Positions 12,683-39,158 of a stretch of 44,438 nt of DNA are shown here, piece by piece (position 1 is the first letter of the stretch; each line of letters starts with the position of its first letter). The DNA is from Candidatus Thermoplasmatota archaeon (lineage in GTDB: Archaea; Thermoplasmatota; SW-10-69-26; JACQPN01; JAJPHT01): assembly GCA_035540375.1 (NCBI GenBank), contig DATLGO010000015.1, positions 1 to 44,438 of the forward strand, read 5' to 3'. The position numbers were made by a program, and so were the translations under genes. Below the pieces are notes generated by a model, which saw only the letters and a list, made by a program, of their open reading frames with translations, was not told where the DNA came from and made no database searches.

Positions 12683-12852
12683 GGGCGCCGGATGCCGGGA
12701 CTCGGGACCGGGCGCCGTGCGCCGGGTGACGGGCGCCGGGATTCGGGACCGGGCGCCGGGTCCGGGTCCGGGACCGGGCGCCGGGTCCGGGACCGGGACC
12801 GGGTCCGGGTCCGGGTCCGGGACCGGGACCGGGACCGGGTCCGGGTCGGGGG
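12683..12852 (+). repeat. GGG-triplet array 1 (G-rich strand = plus)
   Basis: About 170 bp in which GGG recurs every 6-7 nt; I count about 25 triplets. The spacers are mainly ACC and TCC, with CGCC, TGAC, ATTC and CTC in the upstream half. The downstream half is almost a pure hexamer tandem (GGGACC and GGGTCC mixed). It fills the space between two divergent promoters (zinc ribbon and O-methyltransferase). Three G-triplet spacings of 3-4 nt meet the standard G-quadruplex rule many times over. There are no spacers of CRISPR length. Confidence 0.9.
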
Positions 12853-23825: not shown

Positions 23826-25000
23826 TACTTCATCCTCCCGAAGATCGTGACGACGGCCGTGCCGCCGGATCCGCCGACGTTGTGCGCGAGCCCGATCTCG
23901 GCGTCCGCGACCTGCCGCTTGCCGGCCTCGCCGCGGAGCTGCTGGACGATCTCGGCCGCCTGCGCGACGCCCGTCGCGCCCGGCGGGTGGCCGCGCGCCT
24001 TGAGGCCGCCCGACGTGTTGACGGGCTTCTCGCCCTTCCACGACGTCAAGCCCTTCTCGGCGGCCGCGCCGCCCGAGCCCTTCGCGTAGAATCCGAGGTC
24101 CTCGATCGCGAGGATCTCGGCGATCGTGAAGGCGTCGTGGACCTCCGCGACGTCGATGTCCGCGGGCGTGAGGCGCGCGCGCTCGTAGGCGCGCTTCGCG
24201 GCGTGCTTCGTCGCGGCGAGCTCCGTGATGCTCGCGCGGTCGTGCATCGCAAGCGTGTCGCTCGCCTGGTGCGAGGCGAGGATCTTCACGGCGCGGTCCT
24301 TCCGCGTGAATTCCGCGACCTTGTCGGCCGCGCAGAGCACGACCGCGGCGGCGCCGTCGAGGTTCGCCGCGCAGTCGAGCATGCGGAGCGGGTCCGCGAC
24401 CATCGGGCTCTTGAGGACCGCGTCCTTCGTGATCGCGAAGGGATAGGCGGCATTGGGGTTCATCGCGCCGTGCTCGTGGTTCTTCACCGAGACCGCGGCG
24501 AGCTGGGCCGCGGTCGTCCCGTACTTGTGCGCGTGGCGCTGCGCCATGAGGGCGTAGACCGAGGGAAAGGTCGCGCCGAAGAACGCCTCCCATTCCTGGT
24601 CGAGCACCGTCGCAAGCGTGTTCGTCTGCTCCTGGTCGATGACGTCCGTCATCTTCTCGACGCCGCCGACCACGACGACGTCCGCGTCCCCCGAGGCGAC
24701 CGCGAGGTAGCCCTGGCGAAGCGCGACGCCGCCCGAGGCGTCGGCGGCCTCGATGCGCGTCGAGGGGATGTGGTGGTGCGCGAGGCCCGCCTCGTCCACG
24801 ACGAGCGCGCCGACGTGCTCCTGCCCGACGAAGCGGCCCGCGCTCATCGAGCCGACGTACATGGCGTCGATCCGGTCGCCGGGGACGCCCGCGTCCTTCA
24901 CGGCCGCGAGGCCCGCCTCGGTGACGAGCTGGCGGAGGGAGCGCTCCCAGAGCTCGCCGAACTTCGTCATGCCCTGGCCGATGATCGCGACGTCGCGCAT
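23825..25000 (-). CDS. Archaeal acetoacetyl-CoA thiolase-family protein (Asp at the nucleophile position)
   Basis: Thiolase of 391 aa, second gene of the mevalonate-entry operon. Typical segments: [20 protein letters not shown] at the start, GGVEKMTDV, DQEWEAFFGATFPS, VAEVHDAFTIAEI, ARGHPPGATG (catalytic His) and HNVGGSGGTA. At the usual nucleophile motif (EAACASG in related archaeal proteins, from memory) this protein reads IEAADASGG: residue 87 is Asp (codon GAC on the minus strand, about 24740-24742). If the alignment holds, the classical acyl-enzyme step is impossible. It may still serve as a complex scaffold or have altered chemistry. The start overlaps the HMG-CoA synthase stop (TGATG). 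Confidence 0.92.
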   Translation of the reverse strand: MRDVAIIGQGMTKFGELWERSLRQLVTEAGLAAVKDAGVPGDRIDAMYVGSMSAGRFVGQEHVGALVVDEAGLAHHHIPSTRIEAADASGGVALRQGYLAVASGDADVVVVGGVEKMTDVIDQEQTNTLATVLDQEWEAFFGATFPSVYALMAQRHAHKYGTTAAQLAAVSVKNHEHGAMNPNAAYPFAITKDAVLKSPMVADPLRMLDCAANLDGAAAVVLCAADKVAEFTRKDRAVKILASHQASDTLAMHDRASITELAATKHAAKRAYERARLTPADIDVAEVHDAFTIAEILAIEDLGFYAKGSGGAAAEKGLTSWKGEKPVNTSGGLKARGHPPGATGVAQAAEIVQQLRGEAGKRQVADAEIGLAHNVGGSGGTAVVTIFGRMK

Positions 25001-26055
25001 CAGGCCGACGCTCCCTTGATGATCTTGCCGCGGAACTTCGCGTAGGTCGCGTAGTCCACGTACTCCTTGTCGTCGATGAGCTGCTTCATCGTGGGGGTCC
25101 CCTCGCGGTGGAGGTTGCGGATCTCGTCCGTGACCGTGATGTCGAAGGCGTCGGCGCCCGCGCCCGAGCCGTACGCGCACATGAAGATGCGGTCGCCCGG
25201 CTTCGCCTCGTCGAGGATGGCGCAGAGGCCGAGCACCGACGAGCCCGAGTACGTGTTGCCGATGATCGGCGTGAGGAGGCCGGTCTTGAACTGGGGTTCA
25301 TTGAATCCGAGCTTCTGGGCGACGCGGATCGGGAACTTGCCGTTCGGCTGGTGGAAGACCGCGTACTGGTAGCTCGCGGGCTTCATGTCCGCGCGCTCCA
25401 TGAGGCGCTCCGAGGCCGCCTGGACGTGGCGGAAGTACGACGGCTCGCCCGTGAAGCGGCCGCCGTGCGTCGGGTAGCGTTGCCCCTCGCGGCGCCAGAA
25501 GTCGGGCGTGTCCGTCGTGTAGGAGACGGTGTGGTTGATGGACGCGATGACCCGCTCGCGGCCGATCACGAACGCCGCCGCGCCCGCGGAGGCGCTGTAC
25601 TCGAGCGCGTCGCCGGGGGCGCCCTGGCTCGTGTCGGCGCCGACCGCGAGGCCGCGCTCGATCATGCCCGCGCCCACGAGGCCGACGCACGTCTGGATCG
25701 CGGCCGTCCCCGCCTTGCACGCGAACTCGAAGTCTGCGGCCGTGAGGTACGGAGAGGCCTCGATCGCCTCCGAAAGGATCGTCGCCGTCGGCTTCACCGC
25801 GTAGACGTGCGACTCGCTCCCGACGTAGATCGCGCCGATCGTCTTCGGGTCGAACCGGCCGCGCTTGATCGCGACGCGCGCCGCCTCGACCGAGAGCGTC
25901 GTCGTGTCCTGGTCCGGCGACGGCACCGTCTTCTCGTGGACATTGAGGCCCTTCTTGATGCTGTCGGGGTCCTCGCCCCACACGCGGGCGATCTCCTCCG
26001 ACTTGATGCGGTAGCGCGGGATCGCCGCGCCGTAGCTCACGATGCCGACCGTCAT
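25000..26055 (-). CDS. Archaeal hydroxymethylglutaryl-CoA synthase
   Basis: Condenses acetyl-CoA with acetoacetyl-CoA to HMG-CoA, the committed entry to the mevalonate pathway for archaeal isoprenoid lipids. Length 351 aa, normal for the archaeal form. The catalytic triad can be placed: Glu81 ([12 protein letters not shown]), Cys113 ([13 protein letters not shown]) and His235 ([12 protein letters not shown]). [16 protein letters not shown] and [12 protein letters not shown] near the C-terminus are family hallmarks. It is first in a three-gene operon with thiolase and DUF35, with overlapping stop and start codons. A strong TATA box lies upstream, and a 330-bp GGG array lies behind that. Confidence 0.96.
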
Positions 26056-26170: not shown

Positions 26171-26506
26171 CGCCGGGTACCGGGCGTCGGGAACCGGGAC
26201 CGGGACCGGGAACCGGGACCGGGAACCGGGACCGGGCGCCGGGAACCGGGAACGGGCCCGGGAGTCGGGACCGGGTGCCGGGAACCGGGACCGGGACCGG
26301 GAGGCGGGTGCCGGGCGTCGGGAACCGGGACCGGGCCCGGGAGTCGGGACCGGGTGCCGGGCGCCGGGTGTCGGGACCGGGCCCGGGAGTCGGGACCGGG
26401 TGCCGGGTCTCGGGACCGGGAGCCGGGTCCGGGCAGCGGGCCCGGGACCGGGTCCGGGACCGGGTCCGGGTCCGGGTCCGGGAGCGGGAGCGGGAGAGGG
26501 AGCGGG
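26171..26506 (+). repeat. GGG-triplet array 2 (G-rich strand = plus), the largest of three
   Basis: About 335 bp. By hand I count 52 GGG triplets at 6-7 nt intervals. The spacers come from a small set: ACC, AACC, TCC, TGCC, CGCC, CGTC, AGTC, CCC, TGTC, AGC. Longer words such as CCCGGGAGTCGGGACCGGG recur (for example near 26258 and 26386), so the array has higher-order duplication. It ends directly at the stop codon of the V4R-like gene (TCA at 26507-26509) and starts about 75 bp before the HMG-CoA synthase TATA box. It has no start signals or coding character; frames through it give only Pro/Gly dipeptides. Confidence 0.93.
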
Positions 26507-27085
26507 TCAGGCCCACGCGCCGACAAAGCGGCAGCGGGGCGCGCCCTTCGCGAGGCACTCGGGGTGCTCGAGCCGGACGGCGTTCGCGCCGACGCGCGTG
26601 AGGAGGCCGCCGAAGAAGCCCTGGAGGCTCGCGCAGAACGCGGGGGTCGGCGCGAAGCCCGTGAACGCGATCTCGCCCGCGCCGTCGCGGCCTTCCGCGC
26701 GCTCGATGCGGCCGAAGTCCGCGTACGTCTTCCAGAGCATCGGCGCCTCCGAGAGGAGACGGCGCGGCTTCACGAACTTGAGGAGGAAACCCACGCCCGG
26801 CACGACCCGCTCGACGTGGCGCGCGTTGTAGCGGCCCGCCTCCGCGAGGCGGTCGACGCCGACCTCCGACGCGAGCGCGTCGAGGAGCGCGAGATGGGTC
26901 GCGAACGGCGCCCACGCGCCTTCGGCCTCCACACGCACGCCGTGGCGGCGCTCCGCCTCCGCGACGACGCGCGCCGTCGTCGACGAGCCCAGGGTCTCGC
27001 GGGACCAGTCGAGGACGAGGCGGTTCGCGGCGGCCGAGACGCGGCCGGGATGACGGGCGAGGACGAGGGCCTGCTCCGCGGGCAT
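26507..27085 (-). CDS. V4R/DUF2378-like protein
   Basis: Protein of 192 aa. The C-terminal end ([22 protein letters not shown]) has the His/Cys-x-Gly-x-Cys-x-Phe pattern seen at the end of 4-vinyl reductase (V4R)-like domains. These domains bind small hydrophobic ligands or metals. The body is helical ([60 protein letters not shown]), which also fits the related DUF2378 family. The function is open: a sensor or carrier. Its stop codon touches GGG array 2, so any transcript running past the stop enters C-rich RNA. Confidence 0.75.
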
Positions 27086-36246: not shown

Positions 36247-37182
36247 ATGCTCGAACGGCGCACCTTGATCCTCGGGGCCCTGTTGTCGACCGCCGCCCTC
36301 ACCTTCGCGGGGTGCGTCACGCCCTCCGCGATGCCGATCCCGCTCGAGGCGACGGGCGACGAAGGGGCCTCCGCCGACGGCCTCGCGCCCGATGCGGGGG
36401 ACCTCGCGAACCTCACCCCCCCGACCGAGGCGACGATGCCCACATCGGGCGTCGGATCGATCGGATTCCCGCAGGGCCTCGACGCGCTCCCGCCCGCGCC
36501 CCCCGCGGGCGCAACCGAAGCGGTCGCGCCCGACACCCTGGGCGACGCCCCTCTCGCCGACGCCGGCGTCGTGCCCCCGGACGGCGTCGCTGAAGACGCG
36601 CTCGCGGAGATCCCCGCAACGGACGCAGCCGCTTCGGGCGCGTCGCCCGCGGAGGCGAAGGACGCGGAGAAGGCCGAGCGCGAGGCCGAGCGGAAGGAGC
36701 GCAAGGAGAAGCGCGAAGCCGAGCGCGAGGAGCGGAAGGCCAAGCGCGAGGCCGAGCGCGAAGCGCGCAACGCCGAGAAGAAGGGCGAGGACGCGAAGAA
36801 GGACAAGGGCAAGGGGAAGGACGCCAAGCCCAAGGAGGGGAAGGCGAAGGACAAGAAGAAGGACAAGGCCGGGAAGGACGGGAAGGCGGCCGACAAGAAG
36901 CCGAAGCCGAAGGGCAAGGACAAGAAGGACGGAAAGGCCGACGGCCAGTCCAAGAACAAAGGCAAGAAGGAAGGCAAGGACACGGCCGATTCGAAGGCCA
37001 AGCCGAAGGGGAAGGATTCGAAGAAGGGGTCCAACGACGGGACGTCCAAGAAGGACGGCGAGGGGATGGAGAAGGCCTCGAGGTCGAAGGACAAGGGCGG
37101 GAAGAAGGACGCGAAGCCGAAGCAGGCGAAGCCGGACGGCCAGAAGTCCGCGTCCAAGTCGAAGGATAGGAAGAGCGGCTGA
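36247..37182 (+). CDS. Lipoprotein with a very Lys-rich low-complexity C-terminus
   Basis: Protein of 311 aa. The signal peptide ends in a lipobox (LTFAGC, Cys23), so it is probably lipid-anchored on the outer face. Residues about 24-135 are an acidic, Ala/Pro/Asp-rich spacer. Residues about 137-180 are a charged helix of alternating Glu/Arg/Lys (AEKAEREAERKERKEKREAE and similar). The remaining 130 residues consist almost only of Lys, Asp, Gly and Ala in KKDK/GKDGK patterns. Such a tail is likely disordered and strongly basic, and could bind DNA, polyanionic surface polymers or cells. ATG 36247 starts right at the signal peptide. No enzymatic domain is visible. Confidence 0.8.
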   Translation: MLERRTLILGALLSTAALTFAGCVTPSAMPIPLEATGDEGASADGLAPDAGDLANLTPPTEATMPTSGVGSIGFPQGLDALPPAPPAGATEAVAPDTLGDAPLADAGVVPPDGVAEDALAEIPATDAAASGASPAEAKDAEKAEREAERKERKEKREAEREERKAKREAEREARNAEKKGEDAKKDKGKGKDAKPKEGKAKDKKKDKAGKDGKAADKKPKPKGKDKKDGKADGQSKNKGKKEGKDTADSKAKPKGKDSKKGSNDGTSKKDGEGMEKASRSKDKGGKKDAKPKQAKPDGQKSASKSKDRKSG

Positions 37183-37212: not shown

Positions 37213-37376
37213 ACCCGGACCCGGACCCGGACCCGGACCCGACGCCCGGCTCCCGGCGCCCGGTCCCGGCACCCGCGCCCGGTCCCGACGCCCGGACCCG
37301 GCCCCGAATCCCGGCACCCGGTCCCGGTCCCGGGTCCGACGCCCGGACCCCGGTCCCCGCGCCCGAAGGCCCCCGC
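37213..37376 (-). repeat. GGG-triplet array 3 (G-rich strand = minus)
   Basis: About 165 bp. On the plus strand CCC recurs every 6-7 nt (about 24 triplets), beginning with five GGACCC hexamers in tandem. The spacer words GAC, GGT, GGCA, GACG, GGCG and GAAT are the reverse complements of those in arrays 1 and 2. It is therefore the same repeat family in opposite orientation. It fills the gap between the Lys-rich lipoprotein stop and the UbiB-type kinase promoter (TATA at about 37478). Confidence 0.9.
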
Positions 37377-37476: not shown

Positions 37477-37487
37477 AGATATAAAGA
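37477..37487 (+). promoter_or_regulatory. TATA box of the UbiB-type kinase gene
   Basis: AGATATAAAG region, centred about 42 nt before ATG 37524, which leaves a leader of about 15 nt. Confidence 0.65.
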
Positions 37488-37523: not shown

Positions 37524-39158
37524 ATGGCGCGCGCACGCGCGGTGAGCAAGCTCCAGCGGACGGTGGAGATCTCCCGCATCCTCTACAAGAACGACGTCTT
37601 CGGCATGATGCGGGAGATGGCCGTCGCGGAGAGGACCCCCGGTCCGCGGGGCGGCCAGGTCGTGATCCCGCCCGAGGTGCCCCGGAAGACGCGGCGCGCC
37701 CTCGAGGAGCTGGGCCCGACGTTCGTGAAGATCGGGCAGCTGCTCGGCACGCGCCCGGACCTCGTGCCGAAGGCGTTCGTGGACGAGTTCAAGAGCCTCT
37801 ACGACCGCACGACGCCCTCGCCGTTCCCGCTCATCAAGCAGCTCATCGAGCGGGAGCTGGGCCGCCCGATGGAGGAGCTGTTCGACCACTTCGAGGAGGT
37901 CCCGGTCGCGTCGGCCTCGATCGGGCAGGTCCATTTCGCGGTGCTGAAGAACGGCGAGAAGGTCGCCGTGAAGTGCCAGCACCCGGATATCGAGGAGCGC
38001 GTCTTCGTCGACTTCGAGATCATGGAGCCCATGGTCCGGTTCGTGGAGAACCTCTTCGCGGCGAGCCGGGTGTGGCAGCCCCGCGAGCACCTGAACGAGG
38101 TGTTCGACATGCTCGTGAAGGAGCTGGACTACCGCTACGAGGCGCGCAACCATCAGCGCGTGTACGAGTCCTTCCAGGGTTTCGAGGGGGTGAAGATCCC
38201 GAAGATCCACTGGGAGTTCACCGCGAAGCGCGTCCTCGTCCTCGAGCGCATCGAGGGCTACAAGCTCTCGGACTTCGACAACCCGGACCTCAAGGCCCTC
38301 GACGGCAAGCGCCTCGCCCGCGTGATCACGCACGCGATGGCGAAGCAGATGTTCGAGGACCGCCTCTTCCACGCCGACCCGTCGCCGGGCAACCTGATGG
38401 CCGTGGACGCGACGACGGTCGCGTTCCTCGACTTCGGCGCCGTCGGCAAGGTCACGAAGCGCCGCGCCGAGCGCATCCTGCATCTCATCATGGGCTTCGT
38501 GCGCAACGACGTCGAAGCCGTCGCGCAGAGCCTCTACGACATCTGCAACGTGTACGGGGAGGTCGACCTGCGGGCGCTATCGCGCGACGCGGAGCGCATC
38601 ATGGACTACCACGAGCGCGAGCGGGCGAGCGTCGGCGACCCGGTCGTTCTCGACATGATCATCCAGGTCGCGCAGCGGCACAACATGCTGCTCCCGCCGG
38701 ATTTCATGCTCATCACGCGCGCGCTTTTCCAGTTCGAGGGCCTCTGCAAGAAGCTCGACCCCGAATTCGAGCTCGTCGAAGTGCTGCAACCCTACATCCT
38801 CGGCGTCATCCGCCGTCGCGTCGTGAGCGCGGAAGGCGGCGCGGAGATGCTCCTCGACGCCGCGCTCCAGACGACCGAGTTCGTGAAGGCGCTCCCGACG
38901 CGCCTCGCGGCGCTCTCGCGCAAGATCGAGGGCAACGACCTGCGCATCAAGGTGGACCTCGCGTCGATGACCGAGTACCATGCGCAGGAGGAGCGCAGGA
39001 GCTTCCGGACCTCGTTCACGGCGCTCATCGCGGCGCTCGTCCTCGGCTCCGGCCTCGTGCTCGCCTTCGGAAGCCCGACCTTCCTGCTCCCGTTCCTCTT
39101 CGTCGCGTCGCTCTTCGTCCTGCTCTGGGCGTTCGTGATGCTCTATCTCGCCGATTGA
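37524..39158 (+). CDS. UbiB/ABC1/ADCK atypical kinase
   Basis: Protein kinase-like ATPase of 544 aa from the family that supports isoprenoid quinone synthesis or lipid transport. Diagnostic elements: the KxGQ motif LGPTFVKIGQLLGTRPDLVP (Lys69-Gln72), the Ala-rich loop VASASIGQVH replacing the Gly-rich loop (about 129-137), the ATP-binding VAVKCQHP (Lys150), the catalytic HADPSPGNLM and the metal-binding LDFGAVG. Two C-terminal hydrophobic segments (FTALIAALVLGSGLVLAFG and LLPFLFVASLFVLLWAFVML) anchor it in the membrane, as in UbiB. The substrate is unknown; the UbiA and GGPP synthase genes in this window are possible pathway partners. Confidence 0.94.
   Translation: MARARAVSKLQRTVEISRILYKNDVFGMMREMAVAERTPGPRGGQVVIPPEVPRKTRRALEELGPTFVKIGQLLGTRPDLVPKAFVDEFKSLYDRTTPSPFPLIKQLIERELGRPMEELFDHFEEVPVASASIGQVHFAVLKNGEKVAVKCQHPDIEERVFVDFEIMEPMVRFVENLFAASRVWQPREHLNEVFDMLVKELDYRYEARNHQRVYESFQGFEGVKIPKIHWEFTAKRVLVLERIEGYKLSDFDNPDLKALDGKRLARVITHAMAKQMFEDRLFHADPSPGNLMAVDATTVAFLDFGAVGKVTKRRAERILHLIMGFVRNDVEAVAQSLYDICNVYGEVDLRALSRDAERIMDYHERERASVGDPVVLDMIIQVAQRHNMLLPPDFMLITRALFQFEGLCKKLDPEFELVEVLQPYILGVIRRRVVSAEGGAEMLLDAALQTTEFVKALPTRLAALSRKIEGNDLRIKVDLASMTEYHAQEERRSFRTSFTALIAALVLGSGLVLAFGSPTFLLPFLFVASLFVLLWAFVMLYLAD

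Follow-up and report, generated by a model that had tools for sequence, protein, structure and literature searches.

A family of polar GGG-triplet arrays in the intergenic gaps of a Thermoplasmatota archaeon

The window analyzed here, a stretch of 44,438 nucleotides, is contig 15 of a 3.13-Mb Candidatus Thermoplasmatota genome (110 contigs, 97% complete), and its gene content is archaeal: models of archaeal hydroxymethylglutaryl (HMG)-CoA synthase and archaeal pheT matched it far above their cut-offs. It contains three arrays of GGG triplets, which we delimited as strict chains with GGG runs at most 7 nt apart (Table 1). These chains confirmed the three places named in an earlier note on this DNA as well as its triplet count for array 2; the wider bounds starting at 12683, 26171 and 37213 add a few decayed units. 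Array 1 is flanked by two divergent gene starts (12630 on the minus strand and 12892 on the plus strand). Array 2 has on one side the start of the gene for archaeal-type HMG-CoA synthase and on the other the stop codon of the V4R-domain gene, both genes being on the minus strand, and its purer hexamer segment is the G-strand 3' end, in contact with the stop codon of this upstream gene. Array 3 separates a gene stop at 37182 from the start of the gene for the ABC1/UbiB-like kinase. TATA-like sequences sit between array 2 and the HMG-CoA synthase gene (TTTATTAA) and between array 3 and the kinase gene (TATAAAG). An Rfam search of the window returned a tRNA as its sole match and no known RNA family at the arrays, and in 50 first-order Markov versions of the window no chain exceeded 6 triplets.

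Table 1 Coordinates of the arrays, TATA-like sequences and neighboring genes in the window
Feature	Position	Strand	Remarks
Array 1, G-rich on +	12683..12852	+	strict chain 12724-12852, 21 triplets
Array 2, G-rich on +	26171..26506	+	strict chain 26175-26506, 52 triplets
Array 2, purer hexamer end	26438..26506	+	mainly GGGACC/GGGTCC, then GGGAGC units
Array 3, G-rich on -	37213..37376	-	chains 37214-37331 and 37342-37374, 19 + 5 triplets
TATA-like TTTATTAA	26090..26097	-	about 35-42 nt 5' of HMG-CoA synthase start
TATA-like TATAAAG	37480..37486	+	about 38-44 nt 5' of ATG at 37524
HMG-CoA synthase, archaeal type	25000..26055	-	TIGR00748; start faces array 2
V4R-domain protein gene	26507..27085	-	domain match under Pfam's cut-off; stop codon abuts array 2
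ABC1/UbiB-like atypical kinase gene	37524..39158	+	downstream of array 3

Searching the whole genome by pattern and by similarity revealed about 60 such arrays. The set analyzed comprised 59 chains of at least 8 triplets, taken from stretches of about 6 kb around most of the arrays; their lengths ranged from 8 to 67 triplets, and two further places with heptamers only (C20 and C64) fall outside this set. The spacers between triplets were 874 three-base and 845 four-base words from one vocabulary common to the arrays (ACC, TCC, CGCC, CGTC, TGCC, AGCC, TGTC and ATTC), so that the single repeat family with shared spacer words proposed from the window holds genome-wide. Genes were called with a home-made codon model, and a few orientation assignments may therefore be wrong. 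None of the 59 arrays overlapped a gene called by this model, with about 82-87% of the sampled DNA being coding, in agreement with the earlier view that the arrays lie strictly between genes. The zero gene overlap and the frame-breaking mixture of 6- and 7-nt units ruled out coding tandem repeats. Seven contigs (C16, C23, C28, C49, C62, C86 and C103) end inside or near an array or the hairpin element described below; array lengths there are thus minimum values, the assembly having been broken by these repeats. One contig end (L147:3034-3357) carries two back-to-back arrays in opposite orientation and may be an assembly fold-back.

Along the G-rich strand the arrays are polar, with a 3' end of pure GGGWCC and a 5' end of mixed 6/7-mers. 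ACC/TCC made up a share of 0.31 of the words in the first third of the arrays and 0.63 in the last (46 vs 5 arrays, P = 2e-9), and TCC in particular was enriched towards the last third, from 0.04 to 0.31. Polarity was present whether or not an array carried the linked element, and it was kept in 5 of 5 arrays of opposite gene orientation, which indicates that it is a property of the array and not of the gene. Eight-word strings were repeated 17 times within arrays, once between arrays and never in shuffles. Since such repeats are almost all within arrays, growth by local block duplication is indicated, in line with the earlier note, which took the mixing of spacer words to favor unequal exchange over simple slippage. 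Four-word strings were about twice as frequent between arrays as in shuffles, which suggests a common source. Since the heptamer words belong to a limited vocabulary common to the arrays and do not look like the product of random decay, the 5' zone cannot be put down entirely to hexamers that have simply aged.

We mapped the array positions against genes, and the placement next to promoters or stop codons was borne out. In co-directional gaps, 25 arrays have their C-rich strand as sense and 5 their G-rich strand (binomial P about 3e-4); a further 15 arrays occupy divergent gaps and 4 convergent ones. The earlier note had described neither the opposite strand of array 3 nor this non-random orientation and internal order. 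Where a gene start faces the 5' side of an array, the array ends a median of 88 nt short of it. AT-rich promoter-like windows occurred in 15 of 39 gaps from array to gene start and inside none of the 59 arrays. The downstream genes, 10 of which were checked, are mostly housekeeping genes, e.g., those for EF-2, ribosomal protein L11, glycine-cleavage T, QueC and thiolase; phase variation of surface genes was rejected because most of the 10 are housekeeping or regulatory. Array positions are best matched by a transcription boundary, from terminator to promoter.

About 15 arrays, roughly a quarter of the family, continue at their pure end into a dispersed multi-hairpin element, which is carried by none of the three window arrays. 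The junction is constant, GGGACC-GCAGCCGGTGTTCGCGCCC, with a few substitutions. On the C-rich strand the element begins at the upstream gene's stop codon or close to it and includes at least two hairpins, and its 3' part is C-rich and then U-rich, a terminator-like tract. Its stable hairpin followed by CGCGTTTCTTTCTC, just 3' of the stop codon, has the layout of a putative intrinsic terminator. A covariance model of the element matched 39 places in its own genome and 2 in each of the class genomes G001 and G003. The start is intact in 27 copies; in 18 of these it lies no more than 60 nt from the stop of a sense ORF, and 11 of the 27 bear an array with 8 or more triplets. From copy to copy, changes in one hairpin arm are matched in the other; paired changes occur in the first stem (columns 8-42), and the covariation is modest, with three double-change pairs in the model alignment. 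Examples are L127:3485-3830, L121:2802-3057, L154, L155 and L157, and some copies have no array. Extra hairpins are inserted in the copies at L103, L107, L148 and L151. At three arrays (L119, L134 and L137) a second dispersed sequence, accggacgcggttgcccctcgcgca..., replaces the main element on the G-strand 3' side.

The element resembles the REP/BIME sequences of the RepRanger survey (PMC12306157) in being formed of extragenic hairpins with paired arm changes after stop codons, and its 39 model matches provide many extragenic palindrome copies with compensatory changes. It differs from them in that it is larger and modular and bears a G-rich array, and in that no Y1 HuH transposase (RAYT) was found in the genome to go with it. 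A search for the REP-type Y1 transposase (PF01797) gave no match in the own genome and was positive in 5 of 14 control genomes; mobilization by a REP transposase was discarded on this ground. A series of 5'-truncated retroelements was likewise discarded, because arrays without the hairpin element lack graded truncation at the junction as judged by eye. The best reading of these data is that the arrays are in part the tail module of a REP-like 3'-UTR element.

The array patterns had 159 and 209 matches in the own genome in the hexamer and heptamer searches, respectively. Six other genomes of the class gave no match to the pure hexamer pattern and none to the heptamer pattern, and 389 further genomes of the phylum were free of a longer hexamer pattern. 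These results fit the earlier note, according to which no such repeat family is known in this group. A protein scan of named genomes gave no match. A relative of the same family has 72% GC in the stretches read, yet is without arrays; this relative and the Markov control ruled out chance in a genome of 71% GC. Upstream of the gene for the ABC1 kinase, the same-family relative G001 (L351, about 1560-1630) has a terminator-like hairpin and a U tract but no array, and these two resemble the final hairpin of the element.

Prokaryotes are known to have lineage-specific G-rich repeats, and some human minisatellites grow from one end. We give an even chance to the reading that the present arrays are a lineage-specific polar satellite, which is extended at the 3' end of its G strand and tolerated in the gaps from terminator to promoter. 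The arrays occupy the gap from a gene end to the next core promoter, or that between two divergent promoters. New GGGWCC units would be added at the G-strand 3' end, a direction read from sequence purity, and older units would diverge towards the promoter; arrays would persist only where genes and core promoters stay undamaged. The C-rich strand may be mainly sense because G-rich sense RNA would favor R-loops or RNA quadruplexes. A benefit such as the blocking of upstream read-through, if there is any, would probably be secondary. Together, the orientation bias, the polarity and the fixed junction constitute a natural record of tandem-repeat growth in archaea, and population genomes could show if G-rich repeats are filtered by the direction of transcription and if satellites in prokaryotes, too, are extended at one end.

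A benefit of this kind could instead be the reason for the arrays. As a transcription insulator, a structured array on a G-rich template, with or without the hairpin terminator, would halt or slow RNA polymerase and shield the next promoter. The location of arrays between a stop codon and a TATA-bearing gap, the 25:5 excess of C-strand sense, the hairpin element with its U-rich tract directly 3' of stop codons and the lack of AT-rich promoter-like windows within arrays all fit this account. However, the 15 arrays in divergent gaps lie where upstream read-through is absent, many gaps have neither array nor element, and the relatives manage without arrays, so we consider insulation unlikely as the main explanation, though the strongest of the rivals. 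The satellite reading can also be carried further: the hairpin element and the polar CCGGG array might form a compound archaeal gene-boundary module, made of a terminator and a directionally growing, self-renewing GGGWCC tail, that keeps transcription units apart. We regard this extension as speculative and rather improbable.

The repeated unit itself bears on two other explanations. A cytosine stands directly 5' of GGG in 1695 of 1709 units, and the G following CGG, i.e., the third G, is present in 1694 of 1719. This C and the third G are thus equally conserved, which makes (Y)CGGG plus 1-2 bases the repeated unit, and the spacers are not free loops. Such a unit could be read by a DNA-binding protein or methylase recognizing (C)CGGG, with cooperative arrays marking promoter-upstream regions. 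The conserved YCGGG core with variable linkers of 1-2 nt and the regular placement upstream of core promoters are in line with recognition of this type, but the alternation of 6- and 7-bp spacing over 8-67 triplets does not allow a constant helical phase, the analysis identified no candidate protein, and descent by duplication alone would likewise yield a conserved core. We therefore hold a protein-binding function to be improbable.

The earlier note had also called the arrays G-quadruplex capable. As far as the motif goes this stands, since any four consecutive triplets match the quadruplex motif; the scores and predicted folds gave less. The mean G4Hunter score over whole arrays was 0.96, and with a 25-nt window a score of at least 1.2 was obtained in 53 of 59 arrays and 1.5 was reached in 10. 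With quadruplex energies switched on, the RNA minimum-energy fold contained a quadruplex in 23 of the 59 arrays, and hairpins prevailed in the other 36. A minimal 21-mer was predicted to fold as a quadruplex, and the Xanthomonas/Nostoc repeats GGGAATC and GGGGATT fold as quadruplexes under the same RNA model settings. The loops of our arrays end in CC or TC, which makes pairing with the G runs possible, and hairpins are predicted to compete with quadruplexes in the arrays. Judging from these models, quadruplexes are possible but would not account for the conserved unit in the most economical way. That the arrays are kept for DNA or RNA quadruplexes acting in gene control or replication is the least probable of the explanations weighed here: the motif, the scores of 1.2 or more and the 21-mer fold speak for it, but few arrays reach 1.5, most RNA folds lack a quadruplex, and a C before GGG kept as strictly as the third G is unexpected under a pure G-run constraint.

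Heptamer repeats of Xanthomonas and Nostoc, GGGNATC and GGGGA(C/T)T, are dispersed, intergenic and rare in genes (Rehm et al. 2015, PMC4692102). They prefer the antisense strand just upstream of ORFs, favor four units, avoid divergent gaps (7-9%) and have circular dichroism (CD) evidence for quadruplexes (PMC4692102). The arrays described here are likewise G-rich tandem repeats of 6-7 nt that are dispersed, avoided in coding sequence and antisense upstream of ORFs. In contrast to these heptamers, they are built on (Y)CGGG with mixed 6/7 spacing and up to 67 triplets, and their spacers, half of 3 nt and half of 4 nt and with ACC, TCC, CGCC, CGTC and TGCC as the prevailing words, do not follow the NATC of the GGGNATC class. 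Divergent gaps are common among them, they are polar, and some are joined to a hairpin element; quadruplexes in them are predicted, with a mixed outcome, whereas the Xanthomonas/Nostoc repeats have the CD evidence.

Within archaea, species-specific GGG repeats such as (GGGCGA)n in Halomicrobium have been reported as simple regular repeats and left out of that paper's analysis (Chashchina et al. 2021, PMC8044849). Both cases concern a GGG tandem repeat in one archaeon that is missing in relatives of the same family, but the present unit is a 6/7-nt mixture with internal order rather than a simple regular one; mixed units, polarity, orientation bias and a linked element are not described for the species-specific archaeal repeats in PMC8044849. 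The repetitive potential quadruplex sequences (PQS) of Methanomicrobiaceae are single four-run motifs, about half of them tail-to-tail and without strand preference (PMC8044849). They are similarly intergenic and genome-wide, and a C-rich partner permits a hairpin or triplex in place of a quadruplex; our arrays, unlike them, are long, rarely tail-to-tail and of strong strand preference. The family is distinguished from these known counterparts by its mixed unit length, its polarity and its terminator-like partner. The string CCGGGWCC, shared with our arrays, was also present in Streptomyces, other high-GC bacteria and viral contigs among the matches listed. The bacterial and viral runs are of hexamer type and contain at most one four-base word, and are thus frame-preserving, among the matches listed; many of them sit in an open frame, again among the matches listed. 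Several viral contigs (L300-L346) have long GGG runs spaced by TCC, TAC or AC, up to 68 in number, and these hexamer-type runs are possibly collagen-like coding repeats.
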